In this document: piece by piece, positions 19,714 through 38,999 of the stretch
Layout: the number at the start of each line of letters is the position of its first letter
Numbering within the stretch: position 1 is the first letter of the stretch
Source: a virus
Length of the DNA stretch: 40,124 nucleotides
Strand: one strand, 5' to 3'
IMG/VR virus record: IMGVR_UViG_3300032087_001047
Location: 1 to 40,124 of that record
Position numbers and translations under genes: made by a program
Notes under the pieces: model-generated
What the model saw: the letters and a program-made list of their open reading frames with translations, nothing else
Database searches by the model: none
Told to the model about the DNA's origin: nothing

Positions 19714-22700
19714 ATGCCAAAATACAAAGCTAATAATAAGGTTTATAATATACCTGATGATAAAGTAGACTTATTTATTCAAACAAATCCAGAAGCGATT
19801 TTATTAGAAGAAGAAGAAGTAAAGATAGAGGGTGCTCCAAACAAGGATGCAAATGTAGTACCCACACCGGTAATAGCATCCGAGAGTTTGGCTTCAGGTT
19901 TGGAAGGTATTTCTTTGGAATCACCAGAAGAAACTGATGAAACTAAATATGAAAACGCTGTTCGTATTACAGATCAAGAAAAATTAAACATACAAGATCA
20001 AGTTGAAGATATTAGTTTTAAACCTGTTAAAGAATATTTAGGTAGATCAAGAGATATTGGCGCGAAACCTATAATAAAACAGCCTTATGAAACAGAATTA
20101 AAACAAGCTAGAGTTGAGTTAAAAGCACAAGGCAATACAGACCCTGCTATGCAAGATGTATATGCGGAAGCTAAAAAAATTATAACAAAGGAAAAACTTC
20201 AAGCTTTAGCTGAGCAAAAACGAAATAATTACATCAAGACTTTACCTGAAGAAACTAGAATAAAACTTGGTGATACTGTTAACAAAAGATTTGTCGATGG
20301 TACATATAAATTAAATGAATTAAAATCTGATTTAAATATTGCTTTAGATCAATTACCTAAATCTTTAGCATATAAAAACGTATTAGACTTTAATGAATAT
20401 ATATCTACTACAAATCCAGATGGTAGTCCTAGAATACCCAAAGCTAGTCTTGAAGTTCAAGAGTTTTTAAAATTAAAAAACAAATTAGAAAAAGATATTA
20501 AAGAAATAAACAGAAGAAGAGCTGATGGTATAGAATCTCCTGTAGCTGTTCAACAAGTGCAGCAACTCCAAAAACAAGTTGAAGAAAAAGCAAAAAATAT
20601 AGTTACATTAGAAAATGGTGTAATGATTACTAAAGATGTTTTTAATTCTTATAATAAAAACCTTAATGAATTAAAAGAAAAATATAATTTTATAGAAAAT
20701 ACTTCAAAAAAATTAACTGATTTAGTTGATAAACAAGAAGGATTTAAATTAGATATTAGTTGGTTAAGAAAAAATTATAATTTTTTAGATCAACTAGGCG
20801 CTATAGTTACTAAAACTGGAGCTGCTCAAGCTGCTGGATTAATAAGAGCAGGAGCTGATATTCTTGGAGATGTTGGTCCTGGTTTAGGTAAATATGGTCC
20901 TGAGTATATAAAAATTGTTGAAGCCACTAGAAAGGTTCAAAACAAAGCTATGAAAGATCTTGAAGAAGATTACGCTCCTCAAGTAGCTTTTGAAGATGCG
21001 TTTAATAGTCCTTCTGATTTTGGAAAATTTTACATGCAGTCTATGGCTGGTCAAATACCTGTATTAGCTCAATTAACATTAGGTTATGGTGGTATTGGAT
21101 TAATTGGTGCAGGTAGCTATGGTCAAAAGATAAACGATATAGAAACTCTTGATGAGCAAAGAGGTAGTAAAACAAGTAATTTAGAAAAAAGATTAACAGC
21201 TTTAGGTTTTGGAGCTGCAGACGCAGGGCTTGGTAGTTTAAATACATTGAGAATATTTAATACTGCTTTTTCTAATCTTGATGATATAGGTTCTAAAGCT
21301 TTTTTTGACGGTGCTAAAAGTTATTTAAAAGCAAAAGGACCGCAGTTATTAAATCAAACTTTAGCTGAATTTACATTAGAAGGATCAACTGTGTTTGCTC
21401 AAAACGGTATTGAAGTTTTAAGAGGAGAGATGAATCTTCAAAATATTTTTGATAATGTACCTGAAGGAGCTGTGACAGGAGGTTTATTAGCTGTTAGTTT
21501 AGGTGGTGTTCCAATATTAAAAGGTGCAGCGCTAGCTTCTATGACAGATTATAATACAATGTCTGAGTTTAGAGAAAATGAATCTGCTATATCTATACTT
21601 AATAATGAAATAGAAGGTATGGATAAGCGAACTAAAGCTTATAAAACTAGAGTTGATTTAATAAATAATTTAACTGAAAGTAATTCAGATATACTAAATA
21701 AAATTGAAAATGATTTAGCTACTAAACTTATACCAGAAGGTTTTGAGTTATATAAGTTTATTACATCTGCTCAAGAAAATATAAGATTAGAAGTTAAATC
21801 AATATTAGAAAGAACTGATTTAAATAATTCTGAAAAAGCAAAACTATTAAGTATATATGAAAATAGATTTTCAGAACTAGCTAATCAAAGAAAAGAATTT
21901 AAAAATGATTTTCAAAATGTTTTTTCTGTAGAATCTAAAAAAGTTAAAAACAAATATAGAGAACTAGCTAAAAATAAGTTAACAACTAAAGGAGTTACAG
22001 ATCAAAAGCAAATAGATAAAGAAGCTCAGAAGTTATACAACATAGATAAACTTCAAGAGAGTAATGAGCAAGCTTCTAAAGCAGCAAAGAAACTAGCTAA
22101 AAGATATGGGGCTAAAATTAATTACAAGTTTAGCGAAAACAATGCTGAGCTATTAGCTATAGCTAGACAAGATATAGATACTGCTATAGAAAACGGTAAT
22201 GTATCTCAAGCTAAAGGAGATAAAATATTTAATGATTTAAAAGATAATGTTAATAGTGGTAGATCTAATGGTGCGTTTATAAATTTAGGAAATAAAAATT
22301 ATACTGTATTAGTTTCACAAACAAATGCTTTAAACAACGGTAAAACTAGAACACCTATACATGAGCTTGGCCATGTTATATTTATGGAAAGTTTAGGTAT
22401 TGACGAAGCTGGTTATAATAATTTAGCTACAACAATATTAGATTATTTAAAGAAAAATAATGAGTCAGCTGCTAGAAGATTATCTGCTCAAACAGCTGGT
22501 CAAAGCTCAGAAGAAGTATTAACTAATTATTTAGAAGAAGTTGCTAGATTAGATATAGAAAATCAAAACAATAAAAACTTTTTATCTGCTGTAGGTGCTA
22601 ATATAAACAGCATCGTATCTAAACTAACTGGTAAGAAAAATTCTTTATTTTTTCAAGGACCACCTGATGTAGTAAGCTTTATACAAAGCCTTAGTAAGTC

Positions 22701-25700
22701 TATAAAAGATGGAAACTTTGCTGATCTAGATATTCAAGCTGAAGCTGTAACAACAGAAGCTAAAGCTGAAACAGATGAAGCTATTATAAAAGAATCTAGA
22801 ACTGAAGCTGCTTCAACTAGAGTACAAGAAATATATGAATCACAAGGTGTTGCTGGTGCTTTTGATATTATACAGCAATTTAAACCTATTGTAAGTAAAC
22901 TTGTAGAAAGAAGAAAAGATGCTCCTAACTTTGATAGACAATTACTTACTGATGAAATAGAAACAGGTGAGCGTGGTATATTAGATTTAATACAGTCTTA
23001 TAAACCAGGATCAAATGTTCCTCTTGCGGCATACATAAATAAATTTCTACCAGCAAGAACAATTGAAGCATCCAGAAGAGTACTTGGCGAAGAGTTTACA
23101 GCAGATGTTACAGAAGCTAGAGGCGTTGTCGCTGAAGAAGTTGTAGTTGAAACACCTATAAAACCAGAGAAAAAAGCTATTGATCCATTTAGAATAATGG
23201 ATGTTAAGCAAGACGCTGTGACAGAGGTTCAAGAAAGCATTGCAGATAAAGACGTAGACGTTACTACGGTTACATATAAAGAACTTAAAGATATAGCACC
23301 ATACAAAACAGTGGCTGCATTTTTTGATATCCCTACAAGTCGTATTTCAAATCCAAAAGATAACCTACGTAAAGGTGATAATATCTCTGATATACAACGT
23401 TGGATACTTAAAAACGAACCAACACTTAAAAATTTATTTACAGAAGCTAATAGAGAAGTTGTAGAAGTTGAAGGACCAGGCGGTAGAGTTATACGTAAAG
23501 GTGGTGAACCAACTGGTATACCAAGAAATTTATTAAAAACATTTTATACTAAAGGTAAAAGAGTTGGTAATAACTTTCAATGGACTTTAAAACCTTACAA
23601 TCGTAATACATTTTTAGAAGCTGTTGGTATTAAAGAAGGTAAAGTAGATCCTGATTTTGTACCAAGATCTGCAGAAGCTCAAACAATGAAAGGCTTGTTA
23701 GAGATGTATGCTAGAAACTTAGGTAATGTAGTTGCTAGAGAAGTAGTCGATGCTGATATAGATATTAAACCAGAAGTTAAAGCAAGAGCTAAAGTTGAAA
23801 TAGCTAAAGGTAAACCTAGGTTAATGTTTAGTAAATCTTTAACGACTTTGTTTGATTTGCAATTACCAGGTAGATTAAAAGTCGATAGCTTATTAGAAAG
23901 ATTAAGATTAGATAAAACATTAAACTTAAAACAATTAGTTTTGACTCCAGAAGGTAGAAAACAAATTGTAGATACATTTAGAGATGAAGTATTTATTTTA
24001 CTACCTAGATCTGCTTGGCAACAACGTAATTCATTTACCAGTAGTAATGATAATTATAATATCAGCATGTCACAAGGTACTAAAGCTGAAAAAGATGCTT
24101 TTAACCAATTAAAAAAAGATATTGATGCTGAAATAGATAATGCTCCTGACTCTTTTTTTGGAGCAGAAATAAAAGACGTTGATGGTAACGTTGTTAATTT
24201 TAAAATATCAGGATATGGAACTATATTTAAAGGTACTACTTCTGAAATAAAAAATAAAGCAGAAAAATTTAACAAACAAGTAACAGCTATACACAAGGCT
24301 ATGTGGAGCCGTATTGCTGAAAGAATAAATGAAGATAAAAATAGAGCCCCAGCTATAGCAACATATTTAAAATTAACAGCTAATGACAAGTCTTCATTTC
24401 ACAGAAGAGGAGCTGCTGTATTTGGTTATTCACCTGATCCAAAAACTAAAGGAAAAACTAAATATGAATATGAACATGCTATGCCGGCAACAGCTGCTTA
24501 TTTATATTTATTAGATTCTGCTATACAAAATTCCGGTAGAACTGATAGCAATTTTAATGAAGCTTATAGATTAGTTATGAATAACTATAAACTTATAGCT
24601 TTAGATAAAATTGAAAACGCTAAACTAGGTGAAGCAAAATTAGCTAGATCAATGCCTAAAGGGTGGGATGTTTTAAATAATTTTTGGTGGCAAAGATATT
24701 TTAATGAAGCTGTTGGTGCTATAGACGGTGGTATTGATCCAGGTCAAATAGTAGATTTAAATGGTAAAAACTTTATAGAAGTTTTTGGTATAAATGCTAA
24801 AGGCGAACCAATGACTGTAGAAGTTTATAAATCAAAAATAAAAGCTTCTAAATCTAATAATAAGTTACAGCCAAAAGGTTTAAAATATAGCGAAACAGTT
24901 TCTAATGATGTACAGATAAACAATTTAAGTACATTAGATGAGGCATTTGATATAGCTAGAAACGCTGATGCTCCTGTTAAAGGTATTAGTGTTTGGGATT
25001 TTGATGATACATTAGCTACTACAAAATCAAATGTTTTATATACTTTACCAGATGGAACTGAAGGAACTTTAAATGCTGCGCAGTTTGCTACAAGAAGTGA
25101 AGAGTTAATAGAACAAGGTGCTGAATTTGATTTTAGTGAATTTGATGTTGTTACTAAAGGAGCTAAAGGTCCTATGTTTGAAAAAGCTATAGCTCGTAAT
25201 AAAAAGTTTGGTAATGAAAATGTGTTTGTATTAACAGCTAGAACAATGACCGCGGCAGAACCAATACACGATTTTTTAAAGAGTGTTGGACTTGATATAC
25301 CTATTAAAAACATAGTTGGGTTAGGAGATGGTGCTCCTGAAGCTAAAGCAAGATGGATTGTAGATAAAGCCGCTGAAGGTTATAATGATTTTTATTTTGC
25401 AGATGACGCTTATAAAAATGTTAAAGCAGTACAAGACGCATTAAGTGTATTAGATGTTAAATCAAAAGTTAGACAAGCATATGTTAAGTTTAGTAAGTCT
25501 GTTGATTTAGATAAAGACTTTAACGATATTATAGAGGCTAAAACAGGTATTGCTTCAGAAAAAGAATACAAAAGAGTTAAAGCTCAAGTAGCAGGTGCTG
25601 GTAAAGGTAGATTAAATTTCTTTATTCCACCATCAGCAGAAGACTTTACAGGTTTATTATATGCAACACTTGCTAAAGGTAAACTTGGTGATGATCAAAT

Positions 25701-27531
25701 GGCTTGGTATAAATTACACTTGTTAGATCCTTACGCAAGAGCAATGCAAAATATATCAAAGTCAAGACTTGCTTTAATGAATGACTACAAAGCTCTTAAA
25801 AAAGAATTAAACCTTGTACCTAAAAATCTACGTAAGAAAGTTCCAGGTGAACCATATACTAGAGAACAAGCTGTAAGAGTTTACATATGGAATAAACAGA
25901 ACATGGAAGTTCCTGGTATTAGCAAGGCAGATTTAAAAGATCTAACTGATTATGTAAATGATAATGCTGAGTTACAAGTATTTGCAGATCAACTTATAGA
26001 AATAAATAAAGGTGATGGTTATGCTAAACCTAAATTTGGTTGGCCGGCAGGTAGTATCACTACAGATTTATTACAAGGATTAAATACAACTAAAAGATCT
26101 AAGTATTTAGAGTTGTGGCAACAAAATGTAGATGTAATATTCTCTGAAAAGAATTTAAATAAATTAGAAGCTGCATATGGTAAACCATACAGAGAAGCAT
26201 TAGAAAACATGCTTCAACGTATGAAAACAGGTAGAAACCGTAACTTTGCAGGTGATACTATAACTGGTAAGTTTACTGATTGGTTAACTGGTAGTATTGG
26301 TACGATTATGTTCTTTAATACTAGATCTGCATTACTACAAACAATATCATCTATAAACTTTATAAACTTTAGTGATAATAATCCACTAGCTGCAGCAAGA
26401 GCTTTTGCAAACCAAAAACAATATTGGTCAGACTTTATGAAATTAATGAACTCTGACTTCTTGAAAGAACGTAGAGCTGGTTTACGAATCAATGTTAACG
26501 AGGCTGACATTGCTGATATGGCTAAAAAAGGTGGTGTACAAGGTGTTATAAATAGATTATTAGAACTTGGTTTTATACCAACACAAATAGCAGATAGTTT
26601 TGCTATTGCATCTGGTGGTGCTACGTTTTATAGAAACAGAGTTAAGACGTATGAAAAAGATGGTATGGACAAAGCTGCTGCTGAGAAACAAGCGCTTAAT
26701 GATTGGAGAGAACTAGCTGAAGAAAATCAGCAGTCAAGTAGACCTGATAGAATATCAATGCAACAAGCTGGACCACTTGGTAGAATTATATTAGCGTTTG
26801 CTAATACACCAGCTCAGTATGCTAGATTAATTAAGAAAGCTGCTTCAGATTTAAGAGCAGGTAGAGGTGATGCTAGAACTAATATATCTAAAATATTATA
26901 CTACGGTTTTGTTCAAAACTTAATATTCAACGCTTTACAACAAGCATTGTTTGCATTTGCATTTGGTGATGAAGAACCTGAAGATCAAGAAAAACAAGAG
27001 AAATATGTTAGTATAGCAAACGGTATGGCTGACTCGTTATTAAGAGGAGCTGGTATTGGTGGCGCTTTAGTTTCTGTTGGTAAAAACGCAATCATGCGTA
27101 TACAAAGAGAACTAGAAAAAGATCAACCTAAATTAGATAAAGTAGCTTATGAATTATCTAGATTGTCACCTCCAATATCATCTAAGCTTTCAAGAATAAA
27201 TCAAGCGGCTAGATCATATCAGTGGGATAAAGAAGAAATGATAAATGGTGGTTGGAGTTTAGACAACCCAGCGTTTTTAGCAGGTGCTAATGTTATATCT
27301 GCTTTAACAAATATACCACTTGACAGAGCTGTTAAAAAAGCTACTAACGTTTCAAAAGCTACAACACAAGATATAGAGTTGTGGGAGAGATTAGCTTTAC
27401 TTGGTGGTTGGCAAGACTGGGAGATAGGTTTAGATAAAGAAAATAAATCAAATAAACCTAGCGCTAGAAAAACAACTAAACCTGTAAAAATTGTAAGAGG
27501 TAAAAAAGTATTTACAAAAAAGAAATTATGA
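19714..27531 (+). CDS. Giant internal virion protein with HExxH metallopeptidase motif and HAD domain (2605 aa)
   Basis: The largest gene. It opens with a short module also seen at the start of other phage giants (NNKVYNIPDDKVDLFIQTNP). A helical region and hydrophobic stretches (about residues 370-470) follow. A zinc-peptidase motif TPIHELGHVIF places HExxH at H883-H887. A HAD-phosphatase-like domain carries motif I VWDFDDT (D1762, D1764), FVLTART near 1838 and ADDAYKNV near 1895. The motif YEYEHAMPATAAYLYLLD lies before it. The last 500 residues hold a conserved helical module (TIMFFNTRSALLQTISSINF, FIPTQIADSFAIASGGATFY, ILAFANTPAQYARLIKKAAS) and a Lys-rich tail. Size, position and mosaic enzymatic domains fit a polyvalent ejected protein (T7 gp16-like in role), injected with DNA. 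Whether the peptidase and phosphatase modules are active is unknown. Confidence 0.7.
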   Translation: MPKYKANNKVYNIPDDKVDLFIQTNPEAILLEEEEVKIEGAPNKDANVVPTPVIASESLASGLEGISLESPEETDETKYENAVRITDQEKLNIQDQVEDISFKPVKEYLGRSRDIGAKPIIKQPYETELKQARVELKAQGNTDPAMQDVYAEAKKIITKEKLQALAEQKRNNYIKTLPEETRIKLGDTVNKRFVDGTYKLNELKSDLNIALDQLPKSLAYKNVLDFNEYISTTNPDGSPRIPKASLEVQEFLKLKNKLEKDIKEINRRRADGIESPVAVQQVQQLQKQVEEKAKNIVTLENGVMITKDVFNSYNKNLNELKEKYNFIENTSKKLTDLVDKQEGFKLDISWLRKNYNFLDQLGAIVTKTGAAQAAGLIRAGADILGDVGPGLGKYGPEYIKIVEATRKVQNKAMKDLEEDYAPQVAFEDAFNSPSDFGKFYMQSMAGQIPVLAQLTLGYGGIGLIGAGSYGQKINDIETLDEQRGSKTSNLEKRLTALGFGAADAGLGSLNTLRIFNTAFSNLDDIGSKAFFDGAKSYLKAKGPQLLNQTLAEFTLEGSTVFAQNGIEVLRGEMNLQNIFDNVPEGAVTGGLLAVSLGGVPILKGAALASMTDYNTMSEFRENESAISILNNEIEGMDKRTKAYKTRVDLINNLTESNSDILNKIENDLATKLIPEGFELYKFITSAQENIRLEVKSILERTDLNNSEKAKLLSIYENRFSELANQRKEFKNDFQNVFSVESKKVKNKYRELAKNKLTTKGVTDQKQIDKEAQKLYNIDKLQESNEQASKAAKKLAKRYGAKINYKFSENNAELLAIARQDIDTAIENGNVSQAKGDKIFNDLKDNVNSGRSNGAFINLGNKNYTVLVSQTNALNNGKTRTPIHELGHVIFMESLGIDEAGYNNLATTILDYLKKNNESAARRLSAQTAGQSSEEVLTNYLEEVARLDIENQNNKNFLSAVGANINSIVSKLTGKKNSLFFQGPPDVVSFIQSLSKSIKDGNFADLDIQAEAVTTEAKAETDEAIIKESRTEAASTRVQEIYESQGVAGAFDIIQQFKPIVSKLVERRKDAPNFDRQLLTDEIETGERGILDLIQSYKPGSNVPLAAYINKFLPARTIEASRRVLGEEFTADVTEARGVVAEEVVVETPIKPEKKAIDPFRIMDVKQDAVTEVQESIADKDVDVTTVTYKELKDIAPYKTVAAFFDIPTSRISNPKDNLRKGDNISDIQRWILKNEPTLKNLFTEANREVVEVEGPGGRVIRKGGEPTGIPRNLLKTFYTKGKRVGNNFQWTLKPYNRNTFLEAVGIKEGKVDPDFVPRSAEAQTMKGLLEMYARNLGNVVAREVVDADIDIKPEVKARAKVEIAKGKPRLMFSKSLTTLFDLQLPGRLKVDSLLERLRLDKTLNLKQLVLTPEGRKQIVDTFRDEVFILLPRSAWQQRNSFTSSNDNYNISMSQGTKAEKDAFNQLKKDIDAEIDNAPDSFFGAEIKDVDGNVVNFKISGYGTIFKGTTSEIKNKAEKFNKQVTAIHKAMWSRIAERINEDKNRAPAIATYLKLTANDKSSFHRRGAAVFGYSPDPKTKGKTKYEYEHAMPATAAYLYLLDSAIQNSGRTDSNFNEAYRLVMNNYKLIALDKIENAKLGEAKLARSMPKGWDVLNNFWWQRYFNEAVGAIDGGIDPGQIVDLNGKNFIEVFGINAKGEPMTVEVYKSKIKASKSNNKLQPKGLKYSETVSNDVQINNLSTLDEAFDIARNADAPVKGISVWDFDDTLATTKSNVLYTLPDGTEGTLNAAQFATRSEELIEQGAEFDFSEFDVVTKGAKGPMFEKAIARNKKFGNENVFVLTARTMTAAEPIHDFLKSVGLDIPIKNIVGLGDGAPEAKARWIVDKAAEGYNDFYFADDAYKNVKAVQDALSVLDVKSKVRQAYVKFSKSVDLDKDFNDIIEAKTGIASEKEYKRVKAQVAGAGKGRLNFFIPPSAEDFTGLLYATLAKGKLGDDQMAWYKLHLLDPYARAMQNISKSRLALMNDYKALKKELNLVPKNLRKKVPGEPYTREQAVRVYIWNKQNMEVPGISKADLKDLTDYVNDNAELQVFADQLIEINKGDGYAKPKFGWPAGSITTDLLQGLNTTKRSKYLELWQQNVDVIFSEKNLNKLEAAYGKPYREALENMLQRMKTGRNRNFAGDTITGKFTDWLTGSIGTIMFFNTRSALLQTISSINFINFSDNNPLAAARAFANQKQYWSDFMKLMNSDFLKERRAGLRINVNEADIADMAKKGGVQGVINRLLELGFIPTQIADSFAIASGGATFYRNRVKTYEKDGMDKAAAEKQALNDWRELAEENQQSSRPDRISMQQAGPLGRIILAFANTPAQYARLIKKAASDLRAGRGDARTNISKILYYGFVQNLIFNALQQALFAFAFGDEEPEDQEKQEKYVSIANGMADSLLRGAGIGGALVSVGKNAIMRIQRELEKDQPKLDKVAYELSRLSPPISSKLSRINQAARSYQWDKEEMINGGWSLDNPAFLAGANVISALTNIPLDRAVKKATNVSKATTQDIELWERLALLGGWQDWEIGLDKENKSNKPSARKTTKPVKIVRGKKVFTKKKL

Positions 27532-33469: not shown

Positions 33470-34438
33470 TTACCAAATATCTTCAAAATCTTCGTTTTCA
33501 TTTGCCTTGCTATAGTCCGTAGGTCGAATAGCAAAAAAGTCTGTATGAGTATGTCCGCCAGTAAGATGATAAAACCAATCAAGGTTAGATGCAGAATCAG
33601 CATCATAGCTAAAAAACCTTCTTTTATCATTGTACCCAAGTTCAACAAGTTTTTCATTTGTTCTTTTTCTTATAAATTGTTTTAGATCATTTGCTTTTAA
33701 GTTTTCAATATCACCCATCTCAAACATCTTGTCAATATATTTTTCTTCAAGTTCAACCATGATCTTAGCTGCTTTGTATATATCTTCTTTACAGTCTTCT
33801 TTTAGTGTAGGTATTTCCTCACACATGTGTCTATATAATTGACAACCCATACGACTATGTAGTGACTCGTCTCTTACAGACCATTTCATTTGTTGACCTA
33901 TTCCTTTGAGCAGGTTGCGTAATTGAAAAGAATATAAAACAGCAAAAGCACTATATAAACTAACGCCCTCTGCGAAAGCGGAAAAGATTGCCAAGCTACG
34001 ACCGATGCCCACAGGATCATTCCCGTCATAAGCAACCAAGTTGTCAAAACGTTCCGACGTCGCAGGCTCGTGAAGAAACGCTTCAAAGTCTTCAAGTCCC
34101 AGTGTTTCATTTAAATAACTATATGCAACAGCGTGTATTGTTTCTTGTGAGCCGAACATCATAGCCATCTGTTGCACTTCGTGTTTTGGAAACCATGATA
34201 CGACTTTCTGTGTCCAGTAATCTGATACTGCACATTCTGTTTGAGCAAAGCCTAGTAGTATATTACCTACTAAATTCTTCTCTGCTTCTGTTAATTTTTC
34301 GTTCCAGTCTTTAACATCACCTGACATAGGTATTTCTGTATGTAACCAAAACGCTTGAGCTTGTTTCAACCAACCCTCATTATAATATATAGGGTACTCA
34401 AAAGGTTTATAAGGTATTCTTTCTTTAAATAAACTCAT
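33470..34438 (-). CDS. nrdB: Ribonucleotide reductase small subunit, class I (NrdB)
   Basis: This 322-residue radical-generating partner of NrdA has carboxylate and histidine metal ligands at E68 (AQTECAVSDYW), E99 and H102 (SQETIHAVAYSY), E157 (FAEGVSLYS), and E191 and H194 (RDESLHSR). The radical tyrosine candidate is Y106, four residues after H102, as in class Ia. I start at 34438 (MSLFKERIPY), since the seven-residue upstream extension lies inside the previous gene. The stretch encoding residues about 117-162 has much higher G+C than its flanks (separate entry). It pairs with the truncated-type NrdA downstream through the 75-residue gene. Confidence 0.95.
   Translation of the reverse strand: MSLFKERIPYKPFEYPIYYNEGWLKQAQAFWLHTEIPMSGDVKDWNEKLTEAEKNLVGNILLGFAQTECAVSDYWTQKVVSWFPKHEVQQMAMMFGSQETIHAVAYSYLNETLGLEDFEAFLHEPATSERFDNLVAYDGNDPVGIGRSLAIFSAFAEGVSLYSAFAVLYSFQLRNLLKGIGQQMKWSVRDESLHSRMGCQLYRHMCEEIPTLKEDCKEDIYKAAKIMVELEEKYIDKMFEMGDIENLKANDLKQFIRKRTNEKLVELGYNDKRRFFSYDADSASNLDWFYHLTGGHTHTDFFAIRPTDYSKANENEDFEDIW
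33955..34090 (-). other. Atypical-composition patch inside nrdB
   Basis: G+C is 32 of 60 in 33961-34020 and 31 of 60 in 34021-34080, against 14 of 60 in 33661-33720 of the same gene. Codons shift towards CGT, TTG, GTG, ATC and GGC. The patch encodes residues about 117-162, which include metal ligand E157. It resembles the larger patch in terL and may be a short conversion tract, though strong protein conservation alone would not force such codon changes. Confidence 0.55.
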
Positions 34439-34439
34439 T

Positions 34440-34592
34440 TTAATTGTAAGGCATTTCAAATGCTATATCTACAAATGGTAGATAAAACACATATGTTAAT
34501 TGATTTTCTTCTTCATAAGCTCTACACCCAAACAATATGCCTGGATAAAAACCCACTGACAAAGACCAGTTCCATTTCTCTTTATTTTCCAT
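34440..34592 (-). CDS. Small conserved phage protein upstream of nrdB (50 aa)
   Basis: I use the internal ATG at 34592 (MENKEKWNWSLSVGFYPGIL), because the longer frame would run into the preceding 49-residue gene. The protein is Trp/Tyr/Phe-rich, with FGCRAYEEENQLTYVFYLPF and a final VDIAFEMPYN, suggesting a small beta sheet. I recall similar proteins next to reductase genes in Bacteroidota phages. Function unknown. Its stop is one base from the nrdB start. Confidence 0.65.
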   Translation of the reverse strand: MENKEKWNWSLSVGFYPGILFGCRAYEEENQLTYVFYLPFVDIAFEMPYN

Positions 34593-34743: not shown

Positions 34744-34909
34744 AAGCTTTTATATTATATTTTTCATGCTGCCAAACTATATCTTTATATTTTAAATAAC
34801 CTCTTTTTTCAATAGTCCATTTAATATACTTTTCAATTTGTCTTTCAGCATATTTTATCCTAGCTAATTGTTTTGCTCGCTGAGGATTAATCTTACCGTC
34901 TCGTCGCAT
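34736..34909 (-). CDS. 57-residue basic helical protein
   Basis: Starts MRRDGKINPQRAKQLARIKY at 34909 and ends at TAA 34736-34738, overlapping the following ATG. It overlaps the end of the upstream endonuclease by 46 bases, which is more than usual here, but it covers the otherwise empty 34744-34863. It is Lys/Arg/Tyr-rich and largely helical (AERQIEKYIKWTIEKRGYL). A nucleic-acid-binding role is possible from charge alone. Confidence 0.5.
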   Translation of the reverse strand: MRRDGKINPQRAKQLARIKYAERQIEKYIKWTIEKRGYLKYKDIVWQHEKYNIKAYG

Positions 34910-35325
34910 TCTTTTTGATTTTGTGGTTTGTATAATGTAAATGGTCCTATCCTTCTTTCAGCCATAAGTTTTTTAAACATCTTCCAACGTAGTGGAAAAC
35001 TCTCGTTAGCTCTACCTTTACATTCAATTATAAATCCTTTACCAACAAAGTCAGGTGTATACTTAATATTTAAAATCTTTTTATTACCTCGATCTTTATA
35101 TTCACCTTTACCATTACCACATCTTTCATAAGATTTAAATTGAAAATCAAAACCTTCAACTAACTCAAACGTTTGGCCTTCATACAAGGCTGGTATTTTA
35201 GCTTTTTTCAAAGCCATATACATATAGCGTTCAAGACCTGAAGCAAACTTAATACCATCGTAAGATATTTTATTTGCTTGTACAGGTCCTCTTTTCTTTT
35301 TTCTTTTATAATTCTTGTTCCTCAT
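34864..35325 (-). CDS. PD-(D/E)XK endonuclease, T7 endonuclease I / DUF1064-like
   Basis: A 153-residue nuclease with a basic N-terminus (RNKNYKRKKKRG) and the core landmarks FASGLERYMYMALKKAKI (E32), IKYTPDFVGKGF (D92) and IIECKGR (E101, K103). The E, D, ExK spacing marks the PD-(D/E)XK fold; phage proteins of this plan are branched-DNA resolvases or single-strand endonucleases that debranch replicating DNA before packaging. It lies in the replication/nucleotide operon, just upstream of small genes. It overlaps the MazG-like gene by 20 bases. Exact substrate is not predictable. Confidence 0.75.
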   Translation of the reverse strand: MRNKNYKRKKKRGPVQANKISYDGIKFASGLERYMYMALKKAKIPALYEGQTFELVEGFDFQFKSYERCGNGKGEYKDRGNKKILNIKYTPDFVGKGFIIECKGRANESFPLRWKMFKKLMAERRIGPFTLYKPQNQKECDETVRLILSEQNN

Positions 35326-35611
35326 AATGTAAACCGTCGTTACCGTTTTGCCCTATTACATTCATTCTGTTTAACATTACTTCTTCAAGTTCATCTTGTA
35401 AACAAACTCTTGCAGCTTGTATATATAATAATGCATCCATTATTTCCTCTTGTACATCAACTAAAAATCTGTCAAGATCTTTGACTTCGTTTTTAATTTC
35501 ACCCATCATTGTTGCACCGTACTTTTTCTGACCAACCAGACTACGTTGATCTATTTTTTCAATAACTTTTTGTACGATTTCGTCTTTAGTCTTTACTGTG
35601 TAATTACTCAT
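35306..35611 (-). CDS. MazG-like all-alpha nucleotide pyrophosphatase domain protein (101 aa)
   Basis: The middle reads RSLVGQKKYGATM and later VDVQEEIMDALLYIQAARVC, a pattern of short phage MazG/dUTPase-like helical proteins in which the EE and D residues bind magnesium and nucleotide. These hydrolyse (d)NTPs to monophosphates and pyrophosphate. It follows a longer MazG fusion on the same transcript (8-base overlap), so the phage has two related domains. The C-terminus is acidic. Confidence 0.6.
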   Translation of the reverse strand: MSNYTVKTKDEIVQKVIEKIDQRSLVGQKKYGATMMGEIKNEVKDLDRFLVDVQEEIMDALLYIQAARVCLQDELEEVMLNRMNVIGQNGNDGLHYEEQEL

Positions 35612-36400: not shown

Positions 36401-37042
36401 TTATAATTTGTTATTATATAAGTGTAAGTTGTGTGCATAATGGTAATATTCACCAACTTCAATATTTAATCTCTCTGCAACTAATTTTTGTAACATACTA
36501 AAACAGTACTGATCATTGCAGAAACCATACCAGAGATCATTAGAACGCATCAGAGCAGCCATATCAAGCCTATTATTTACAATAGTAAACTGAACAGCAT
36601 ACGTACAAGGCGTATCTTTAGCATAAGTAGCATGCTCTTTACAGTCATAAATACTGATCGCTGCATGTCTAGTATCTTTGCAATTTTTTAACTTAGCAAC
36701 TACATAATCTAGCTGATCATTACGTTGCCATTGCCAACCATAATTAGATCTTACTTCGTTATTACTATCTGCCATACGTTCCCATATTGGTGGTATCTTA
36801 CCGTATATTTTACCTAACTCATAAATATTAGGATCACCAGATAAATACCATTGCCATTCAGCATGAGCATAATCATATTTCCAATTACGTTCTTTATTAA
36901 ATATAACGTTTTCTAAAGGTTTTTCTAACGTAAACCCAACGTTAAATAAAGCTTTGGTATCACCAAAAGGTATACCGTCTGTAATTATTTTATCAAGAAA
37001 ATAATTATAAGCTTCGTCTGCATTTCTAAATTTTCTGCGCAT
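36401..37042 (-). CDS. Thymidylate-synthase-family pyrimidine methyl/hydroxymethyltransferase (possible dCMP-specific)
   Basis: Landmarks align without gaps to E. coli ThyA numbering: C146 nucleophile in TPCTYAVQF, R166-S167-x-D169 in MRSNDLWYG, G173, and H207/Y209 in NLHLY. Upstream, AEWQWYLSGDPNI and IWERMADSNNEVRSNYGWQW match the conserved folate-site helix region. Position 177, Asn in thymidylate synthases and the residue that recognises uracil, is Asp here, as in T4 dCMP hydroxymethylase; this predicts dCMP as substrate. The chain stops at residue 213, about 50 residues short, lacking the C-terminal closing segment, and no continuation exists in another frame. It lies amid MazG and primase genes. 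It could supply modified cytosine or ordinary pyrimidine; activity is unproven. Confidence 0.75.
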   Translation of the reverse strand: MRRKFRNADEAYNYFLDKIITDGIPFGDTKALFNVGFTLEKPLENVIFNKERNWKYDYAHAEWQWYLSGDPNIYELGKIYGKIPPIWERMADSNNEVRSNYGWQWQRNDQLDYVVAKLKNCKDTRHAAISIYDCKEHATYAKDTPCTYAVQFTIVNNRLDMAALMRSNDLWYGFCNDQYCFSMLQKLVAERLNIEVGEYYHYAHNLHLYNNKL

Positions 37043-37277
37043 ATTTTTTATAATAATATTTATAGAACTCGTACATCTGAACCCATATTGCTACTGGTCC
37101 ATAGACTAACGGAGATCTATTATTTTTATTGTTTATCTTAATATCAATGTACCAAGCTCCTTCTCCATTCGCAAATGGGGATATATATATTCCATTGTTT
37201 ATACACCATCTGTATGCTTCCAGTTCCTGCATAGTAGGCGTATATTGTCCCATTACATCTTTCTTTTTTCGTGGCAT
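37026..37277 (-). CDS. Small conserved protein (83 aa) between primase and TS-like gene
   Basis: The product begins MPRKKKDVMGQYTPTMQELE, then has YRWCINNGIYISPFANGEGA and an aromatic helix end (YEFYKYYYKKYAQKI). The pattern looks like a compact alpha/beta phage protein. It starts directly after the primase-helicase stop (TAA then ATG) and overlaps the next gene by 17 bases, so it belongs to the same transcript. No family or catalytic motif is recognised. Confidence 0.65.
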   Translation of the reverse strand: MPRKKKDVMGQYTPTMQELEAYRWCINNGIYISPFANGEGAWYIDIKINNKNNRSPLVYGPVAIWVQMYEFYKYYYKKYAQKI

Positions 37278-38999
37278 TTATTCCCAAGGCATTGGTTCAT
37301 TTTCTTTAACTGCATTTATTTGAGGTACAAAACAACCTGATCTTGGCTCCCATTTAAAATGAGCTTCAGCACCGTTTTCACCTAAGTTTTGAAACTTAAC
37401 TTTAAGTACTTTAGCTTTTACAGTTTTATCTTCATAATTTCTATGTACTAATATACCGTGATAACTAGCATCATACCATTCACCACCACCTTTAATGTTA
37501 TACATATTAGGTTCTTCAATCTGACCATTTTGGTTCTTCTGCATTTTAGTTGGGTGAGCTACAATGAAAACTAAAGCATCATATTTTTTAGCGAACACTT
37601 CTATTTTAGTTAGATAATCCATGGTGTAACGATTAACATCGTCAGACTTAGCATTAACATCTCTAACTTTATTATAAGGATCGATCACTAAACATTTAAT
37701 ACCTTTACGTTTAACAAGCTCAGCACCTTTACGTAATACAGAATCAAGATCATATCGTTCCATGTCAATGAAAAAGAAATTATCATTAACGTGTTGTGAT
37801 ACTTCTTTCCATTTACCTCCACCAATATCATTTGTGCTTGGCATATCACCCCATACTTTACGCATTAATTTATGTGCATGTAAATATGTAGGTGCATTTT
37901 CAGGAGATGCGAACGCAGTTTTCCAACCATAATTTTGATTGTAACCTACAACCATCTGATCAACAAAATCAGATTTACCAGAACTAGGTATACCAGTTAC
38001 AGTAATAAACTGTCCAGTATAAGTTGAAAATATTTCATCAAAGTTTGATAAGCCAACTTGATAACCAGGTTTAAAACCATGTTTAACAAAGTCTGAAACT
38101 TCTGCTTCAACATCTTTAAACGTTGTAACATTTTCCAATGGATATGGTCTTGCTTTAGCAATACACTCTGCTAATTTTTGTTTACCATATTTTACTAGAT
38201 ATTCATTAGCATCTTTACACTCATCAAAGTCTGCTAAGAAACAAACTTCAGCACCAAGTCTACGAACTAACTCTGACTGTAATGCTTGACCAGCTTCATC
38301 TGAATCAACTGCTAATATTATTTTTTCTTTATCATCAAAATAATCTATACAATTATCTAGATAATCAAGATTATTACTAGTTAATGTTGCACCGTTTGGA
38401 ACTGATATAACATTACGTACACCAGCTTCATGTAGTGATAATACATCTATTTCACCTTCAGTTATAACACAACTGTCATAACCAACTATGCTGTTGATAT
38501 TATAAAATATCTTTTCAGCACCTTTATATAGTTTAAAATTTTTGCGACCATCTCTGTATTTAACATTGATAAGTTGGTCACCCATATAATAATTAAACTT
38601 TATAGTATTCTCGGTCTTACCGGTTTGTGGCATCCACTCAGGACCCTCACTGATCTGTAAATCAATAAGAGTCCGAGTTGATATACCCCTTGTCTCGAAC
38701 CATTCAGCTACTTTACTACGTGGTATATTAAACTCTTCTACAGGTGGTTCTACTGGTCTTATATACTCACGTTCACTAGCGCCTTTACGCTGATATGTAT
38801 GTAGCTGAAATGAAGTGTTACAATTGTGACAAGTACCGAGACCCCGTTCCCAATCATATGAAGCACATTTTGCTTTTTGATTTTTGGGTTGCCTATCGTG
38901 TGAACACAAAGGACAAATCCCTTGTTTCTTACCTTGTTCTAGGCCATACTGATTGAACTTGTCAATCAAAAATCCATTGATCTCTATTGTCTCTATCAT
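37278..38999 (-). CDS. Primase-helicase (T7 gp4-like, DnaG-TOPRIM fused to DnaB-type helicase)
   Basis: The 573-residue enzyme primes and unwinds DNA at the phage fork. An N-terminal zinc ribbon has CPLC (C29, C32) and CHNC (C57, C60). The TOPRIM domain shows VITEGEIDVLSLHEAG (E181) and ILAVDSDEAG (D232, D234). The RecA-like helicase starts after residue 300 with Walker A TGIPSSGKSDF (336-343) and Walker B KCLVIDPYNKV (D440), and has VAHPTKMQ and a C-terminal PMPWE end. The order and length match bifunctional phage primase-helicases. It sits downstream of the SSB-like gene and upstream of nucleotide genes. No polymerase gene lies in the window. Confidence 0.95.
   Translation of the reverse strand: MIETIEINGFLIDKFNQYGLEQGKKQGICPLCSHDRQPKNQKAKCASYDWERGLGTCHNCNTSFQLHTYQRKGASEREYIRPVEPPVEEFNIPRSKVAEWFETRGISTRTLIDLQISEGPEWMPQTGKTENTIKFNYYMGDQLINVKYRDGRKNFKLYKGAEKIFYNINSIVGYDSCVITEGEIDVLSLHEAGVRNVISVPNGATLTSNNLDYLDNCIDYFDDKEKIILAVDSDEAGQALQSELVRRLGAEVCFLADFDECKDANEYLVKYGKQKLAECIAKARPYPLENVTTFKDVEAEVSDFVKHGFKPGYQVGLSNFDEIFSTYTGQFITVTGIPSSGKSDFVDQMVVGYNQNYGWKTAFASPENAPTYLHAHKLMRKVWGDMPSTNDIGGGKWKEVSQHVNDNFFFIDMERYDLDSVLRKGAELVKRKGIKCLVIDPYNKVRDVNAKSDDVNRYTMDYLTKIEVFAKKYDALVFIVAHPTKMQKNQNGQIEEPNMYNIKGGGEWYDASYHGILVHRNYEDKTVKAKVLKVKFQNLGENGAEAHFKWEPRSGCFVPQINAVKENEPMPWE

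Follow-up and report, generated by a model that had tools for sequence, protein, structure and literature searches.

A short gene in the stretch of viral DNA analysed here (IMG/VR record IMGVR_UViG_3300032087_001047, positions 1 to 40,124; 40,124 nucleotides, hereafter the window) in all likelihood encodes a folate-dependent dCMP 5-hydroxymethylase, judging by its sequence. The 213-aa product has a thymidylate synthase (TS) fold and is, on the best reading of its residues, very likely a hydroxymethylase and not a methylase. Together with its 71 distinct relatives, it represents a well-conserved, short and widespread branch of an already known kind of enzyme. The virus is widespread, its hosts are probably marine Bacteroidota bacteria, and its DNA is probably built with modified cytosine. 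Residues, predicted fold, conservation and synteny were computed in this work.

This reading assigns a specific predicted chemistry to hundreds of contigs from uncultured viruses, in which the gene would otherwise be labelled 'thymidylate synthase' on its family match, and modified cytosine is predicted in an abundant virus group. If true, this would bear on the evasion of restriction and CRISPR, on sensitivity to type IV restriction and on deamination-based sequencing. The analysis also yielded a residue test separating three chemistries that have Asp177 (hydroxymethylase, hydroxylase and methylase), and the family offers a compact natural model of a hydroxymethylase lacking the C-terminal tail.

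The gene product and its viral relatives

The ORF matches Pfam Thymidylat_synt (PF00303) at 6.6e-25 (88.2 bits against a curated cut-off of 24.3), and its best PHROG match stands at 3.5e-40. The profile score above the cut-off, together with the catalytic Cys, Arg166, Ser167, Asp169, His207 and Tyr209, places the protein within the TS fold. A preliminary description had reported a gapless alignment to E. coli ThyA from C146 to Y209 (C146, Q151, R166, S167, D169, G173, H207 and Y209 coinciding), an Asp at the position of E. coli Asn177 and a chain about 50 residues short; all three points were borne out, the protein having 51 residues fewer than ThyA (264 aa). Its numbering equals that of ThyA from C146 to Y209; further upstream, E62 corresponds to ThyA E58 and T4 E60, W87 to ThyA W80 and Y101 to ThyA Y94.

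Scanning of viral contigs gave 431 stretches encoding relatives, the best 80 loci being 67–96% identical to the protein. The relatives are 209–222 aa long, the full-length ones share a terminal HLYNxK motif, and their chains stop just past Y209, leaving the TS-type C-terminal lid absent. Since the relatives end at the same motif, lacking the ThyA tail is characteristic of the whole family. Frames beyond the stop of the ORF hold no remnant of that tail, the next gene beginning 2 nt downstream; a frameshift or truncation was ruled out by this result and by the common end of the relatives.

Asp177 was found in all 71 distinct relatives aligned and is therefore neither chance nor a sequencing error. 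The same 71 also keep C146, T147, M165, S167, N168, E62, W87, Y101, H207 and Y209; one relative deviates at R166 and one at N176. The position of T4 Arg124, the second phosphate-binding Arg, is occupied by His or Gln in the family.

Active-site signature

In T4 gp42, D145, S94, Y96 and D179 are needed for hydroxymethylation and have been proposed as a signature: the D145N, Y96F and S94N variants are dead, D179N has negligible activity, and D179 is a proven cytosine determinant (PMC6400193). The signature was scored here as an Asp three residues before the catalytic Cys (Cys-3), Ser-x-Tyr, Asp179 and the lack of a C-tail. The equivalent of T4 Asp145 is present as D143-T-P-C146 and that of T4 Ser94 and Tyr96 as S99-N-Y101, each in the protein and in 70 of 70 scored relatives; D177, invariant as described above, is the equivalent of T4 D179, in agreement with the earlier remark that T4 dCMP hydroxymethylase has Asp here, and the lid is missing throughout the family. 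More broadly, Asp at Cys-3, T147, S-N-Y-G, M165, N168 and N176 are common to all 70 scored relatives and T4 gp42. Where ThyA has Asn177, His147, Leu at Cys-3 and a C-terminal tail, the protein has Asp, Thr, Asp and no tail. In MetaGPA, the two positions with the strongest association to phage contigs carrying modified cytosine are 177 and 147 (PMC8670742).

At the level of sequence, Asp177 marks a dCMP enzyme without telling its product, as three dCMP chemistries have it; its use as sole proof of hydroxymethylation was dropped, the residue being common to Xp12 relatives and the AfhB-type enzyme. The preliminary description had stated that Asn-to-Asp changes in TS shift preference towards dCMP, which accords with the conversion of TS into a dCMP methylase by this change (cited in PMC8670742). 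Its proposal, based on Asp177 and chain length, of 5-methyl- or 5-hydroxymethyl-dCMP as the product stands as regards dCMP and is narrowed to the 5-hydroxymethyl compound by the invariant Cys-3 Asp and Ser-x-Tyr, the Xp12-relative proteins being without that Asp. As for the sugar, MilA, which prefers CMP, has Ala and Lys where dCMP-preferring enzymes have Ser and Arg (PMC5175136). Unlike MilA, the protein carries the dCMP-preferring pair, S167 and R125, so that, by the MilA work, deoxyribose (dCMP) would be favoured over CMP (PMC5175136).

Structure and phylogeny

An AlphaFold2 model of the protein built with 40 family members reached a pLDDT of 91 and a pTM of 0.89, and was weakest, apart from the last residues, at residues 131–150, which include the D143–C146 loop. 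VIA comparison of solved structures gave Z scores of 22.9 for 9iqc (AfhB), 22.7 for MilA, 19.6 for T4 dCH and about 19 for ThyA. By sequence profile, the solved relatives were led by MilA (1.5e-23) and then T4 dCH (3.4e-21), both ahead of thymidylate synthases. In a tree of D177 enzymes the protein was joined to the T4-type enzymes at a weakly supported fork (83/53).

Alternative readings

An unlikely alternative is a dCMP 5-methylase whose product is 5-methyl-dCMP, the activity put forward for Xp12, a fully methylated phage, and seen in N-to-D TS mutants. Asp177 would be common to both, the N-to-D change alone makes TS a dCMP methylase (cited in PMC8670742), and W87 and E62 are kept. The comparison was made with the Xp12 relatives AXL1 and PaMx28, the methylation of AXL1 itself having been inferred from restriction patterns; their proteins have Asn at Cys-3, Pro147, Ser168 and some 85–100 extra residues, in phages that carry DHFR, whereas the window's protein has Asp at Cys-3, Thr147 and no C-terminal lid, with DHFR in 0 of 30 related contigs. 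The residue pattern drawn from these relatives (Asn at Cys-3, Pro147, long C-terminus) is thus not that of the protein. Another alternative is a FAD-dependent dCMP 5-hydroxylase of the AfhB type, whose 5-hydroxy-dCMP would then be arabinosylated as in RB69-like phages. In its favour, the highest VIA score, tied with that of MilA, belongs to 9iqc, which contains dCMP and FAD and also lacks the C-tail. A TS-superfamily enzyme is used by Mosigvirus to make 5-hydroxy-dCMP (PMC13390438). RB69 ORF048c, nearly identical to 9iqc (9iqc and 9iqu are AfhB structures from 2025), is, however, only 23% identical to the protein and no longer has counterparts of W87, D169 and G173, whereas the protein keeps all three and, with its relatives, retains the folate-site residues. 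It further has Thr at the S99, Glu at the D143 and Phe at the Y209 position, the placement of its catalytic Glu depending on the alignment, and a hydroxylase is considered very unlikely. At every position that discriminates the hydroxylase and Xp12-relative types, the protein agrees with the hydroxymethylase pattern.

The shared fold and Pfam family, and the many phage homologues annotated as thymidylate synthase, would suit a dUMP enzyme (thymidylate synthase or dUMP hydroxymethylase) in which Asp177 is a tolerated substitution. Yet the dUMP-type members of the panel have Asn177 and His or Asn at 147, and the cytosine-determining role of T4 D179 is proven (PMC6400193), making this reading extremely improbable. 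Equally little credence is given to a catalytically dead or regulatory TS-fold protein, which the unusually short chain and the replacement of one phosphate Arg by His or Gln might suggest: across about 70 distinct relatives at 67–96% identity, little or nothing has changed at the catalytic residues, which argues for selection on catalysis.

Gene neighbourhood

The features around the hydroxymethylase-like gene are given in Table 1. Within the reach of the contigs, nearly all 80 loci keep the order helicase-primase, 83-aa gene, hydroxymethylase, MazG-like gene, 101-aa gene, DUF1064, a small gene, NrdB and NrdA.

Table 1. Features of the hydroxymethylase-like locus in the window.
Feature	Position	Strand	Remarks
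Helicase-primase, 573 aa, upstream	37278..38999	(-)	tblastn to annotated phage DNA primase/helicase; 74 loci
83-aa protein, end overlaps TS-like start	37026..37277	(-)	No Pfam/PHROG match; present in 78 loci
dCMP 5-hydroxymethylase-like protein, thymidylate synthase fold	36401..37042	(-)	213 aa, ATG start; predicted key residues: nucleophile C146, specificity D177, water-activating D143, S99-x-Y101, folate-activating E62
MazG/PRA-PH-type nucleotide pyrophosphohydrolase, 264 aa	35604..36398	(-)	Pfam PF01503 6.6e-8; starts 2 nt after TS-like stop
101-aa conserved protein	35306..35611	(-)	phrog_11184
DUF1064 / Holliday-junction-resolvase-like protein	34864..35325	(-)	Family matches and conserved position
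NrdB, ribonucleotide reductase small subunit (putative)	33470..34459	(-)	Position, 70 loci; name from reading the sequence
NrdA, ribonucleotide reductase large subunit, 564 aa	31548..33242	(-)	Pfam PF02867 1.4e-97

The MazG-like neighbour adjoins the TS-like gene in 78 loci and has a conserved EExGE...D motif. It is a plausible candidate for a dCTP/NTP pyrophosphohydrolase feeding dCMP; profile comparison found no resemblance to T4 gp56 dCTPase and the solved structures nearest to it are those of small MazG-like proteins, so the dCTP specificity is a guess. Its N-terminal half, conserved as YYIYHIPGKKIGVTxDLNNRV... and without a Pfam match there, is reminiscent of a GIY-YIG-like stretch. In MetaGPA, PF01503 is found together with TS, in many cases specifically in contigs with modified cytosine (PMC8670742), and a PF01503 gene likewise lies just upstream in two further D177 phages, both from Manatee Spring.

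For NrdB, the ATG at 34438 is the likelier start; NrdA is shorter than usual large subunits and carries a C-terminal CVACDG motif. Contig IMGVR_UViG_3300030380_004057 (76,964 bases) holds two different copies of the cassette (L008 and L012; 84% and 81% identical to the protein) near its two ends, the result either of an assembly that merged two phages or of a genuine duplication.

Proposed mechanism and fate of the product

By analogy with T4 biochemistry in the cited papers, C146 would attack C6 of dCMP, and D177 would pick cytosine over uracil and protonate N3. Methylene-tetrahydrofolate, activated by E62, would hand its carbon to C5 and, without the ThyA C-terminal lid, a water held by D143, S99 and Y101 would add to the methylene, yielding 5-hydroxymethyl-dCMP with release of free THF, not a methyl group with DHF. 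The lack of DHFR in the 30 related contigs agrees with a release of THF rather than DHF. The same biochemistry, together with genomic context, underlies the roles suggested for the other steps: dCMP would probably be supplied by the phage ribonucleotide reductase and the adjoining MazG-like pyrophosphohydrolase, 5hm-dCMP would probably be phosphorylated by host kinases, and the phage DNA would receive 5-hydroxymethylcytosine, which may protect it against restriction. Modified cytosine in the virions is a reasonable prediction.

Among the 30 related contigs, some of them possibly fragments, no T4 gp1-family hm-dCMP kinase (PF21448), thymidylate kinase (PF02223), DHFR (PF00186), DNA carbamoyltransferase (PF02543), ThyX (PF02511) or dCMP deaminase (PF00383) was found; T4, by contrast, encodes its own hm-dCMP kinase. 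The missing kinases count against the hydroxymethylase reading, as do the His or Gln in place of T4 Arg124 and a chain 33 aa shorter than T4 gp42. With the VPE25 protein as query, no credible VPE25-type beta-glucosyltransferase was detected in related contigs, the single match (9e-4, one contig) being a 328-aa frame whose position suggests NrdB and which was taken as spurious. A more far-reaching and rather doubtful possibility is that a very common, probably marine lineage replaces cytosine with undecorated 5-hydroxymethylcytosine by means of a minimal hydroxymethylase and the kinases and DNA polymerase of the host, itself encoding neither a dNMP kinase nor a DNA polymerase or DNA glycosyltransferase.

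The virus and its likely host

The terminase is related to those of phages of Flavobacterium, Cellulophaga, Tenacibaculum and Maribacter. A Shine-Dalgarno-like motif lies ahead of 3 of 35 genes, a frequency not above random, and a scarcity of such motifs is usual for Bacteroidota. No annotated thymidylate synthase was present in the elemovirus region read or in the part read of MW202828, the closest terminase relative. Four long related contigs (52–71 kb) encode an ERF recombinase, an exonuclease, an ATP-dependent DNA ligase, a sigma-like protein and GroEL, and no DNA polymerase was seen in their ORF lists. Positions 19714–27531 of the window are taken up by one ORF of 2605 aa, which is also conserved in four related genomes, the closest of them having a 2907-aa version.

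Assigning the host by homology was abandoned, as matches to bacterial genome contigs were scattered over MAGs of different phyla and are probably mis-binned virus. Three different contigs (L115–L117) of the MAG Aliivibrio sp. Ust_30 encode relatives of the viral enzyme, a sign that contigs of viral origin may have been placed in a bacterial bin.

Comparison with known enzymes

Gp42 of the Bacteroides phage BF503P2, annotated as deoxycytidylate 5-hydroxymethyltransferase, is 44% identical to the protein over 197 residues, similar in length (226 aa) and the same in its signature residues; we know of no published assay of it. BF503P2, which is a gut phage, also encodes a dUTPase and a further TS paralogue, and its neighbourhood differs from that in the window. 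Its two TS-like paralogues (L082; 7121–7927 and 10001–10681) both have D177, and gp36 is strongly diverged, apparently without the catalytic Glu.

MilA, the CMP 5-hydroxymethylase of mildiomycin biosynthesis (5jnh, 5b6d), is the closest solved sequence and the top Foldseek match to the model. In a HMMER alignment it shares D177, T147, M165, N168 and the Asp at Cys-3, but differs in the Ala and Lys that set its ribose preference and in a large helical C-terminal region (PMC5175136). The dCMP 5-hydroxylase AfhB/RB69 ORF048c (9iqc, 9iqu) has in common the fold, D177, T147, M165 and the lack of a TS-type C-tail. The TSs of the Xp12 relatives (AXL1_63 and PaMx28 gp52) likewise have D177 and an adjoining pyrophosphohydrolase or hydrolase gene, but differ in the Asn and Pro147 noted above, in their length of about 300 aa and in having DHFR and dCMP deaminase alongside.

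T4 gp42 (246 aa; PDB 1b49, 1b5d, 6a9a) is about 25% identical to the protein, which is 33 aa shorter, has His/Gln for T4 Arg124 and Met for the gate residue Val85; unlike T4, the family is without a gp1-type kinase in the related contigs searched. The two nevertheless have in common the fold, the specificity Asp (D177/D179), the Cys-3 Asp, S-N-Y-G, T147, M165, N168, N176 and a lidless C-terminus.
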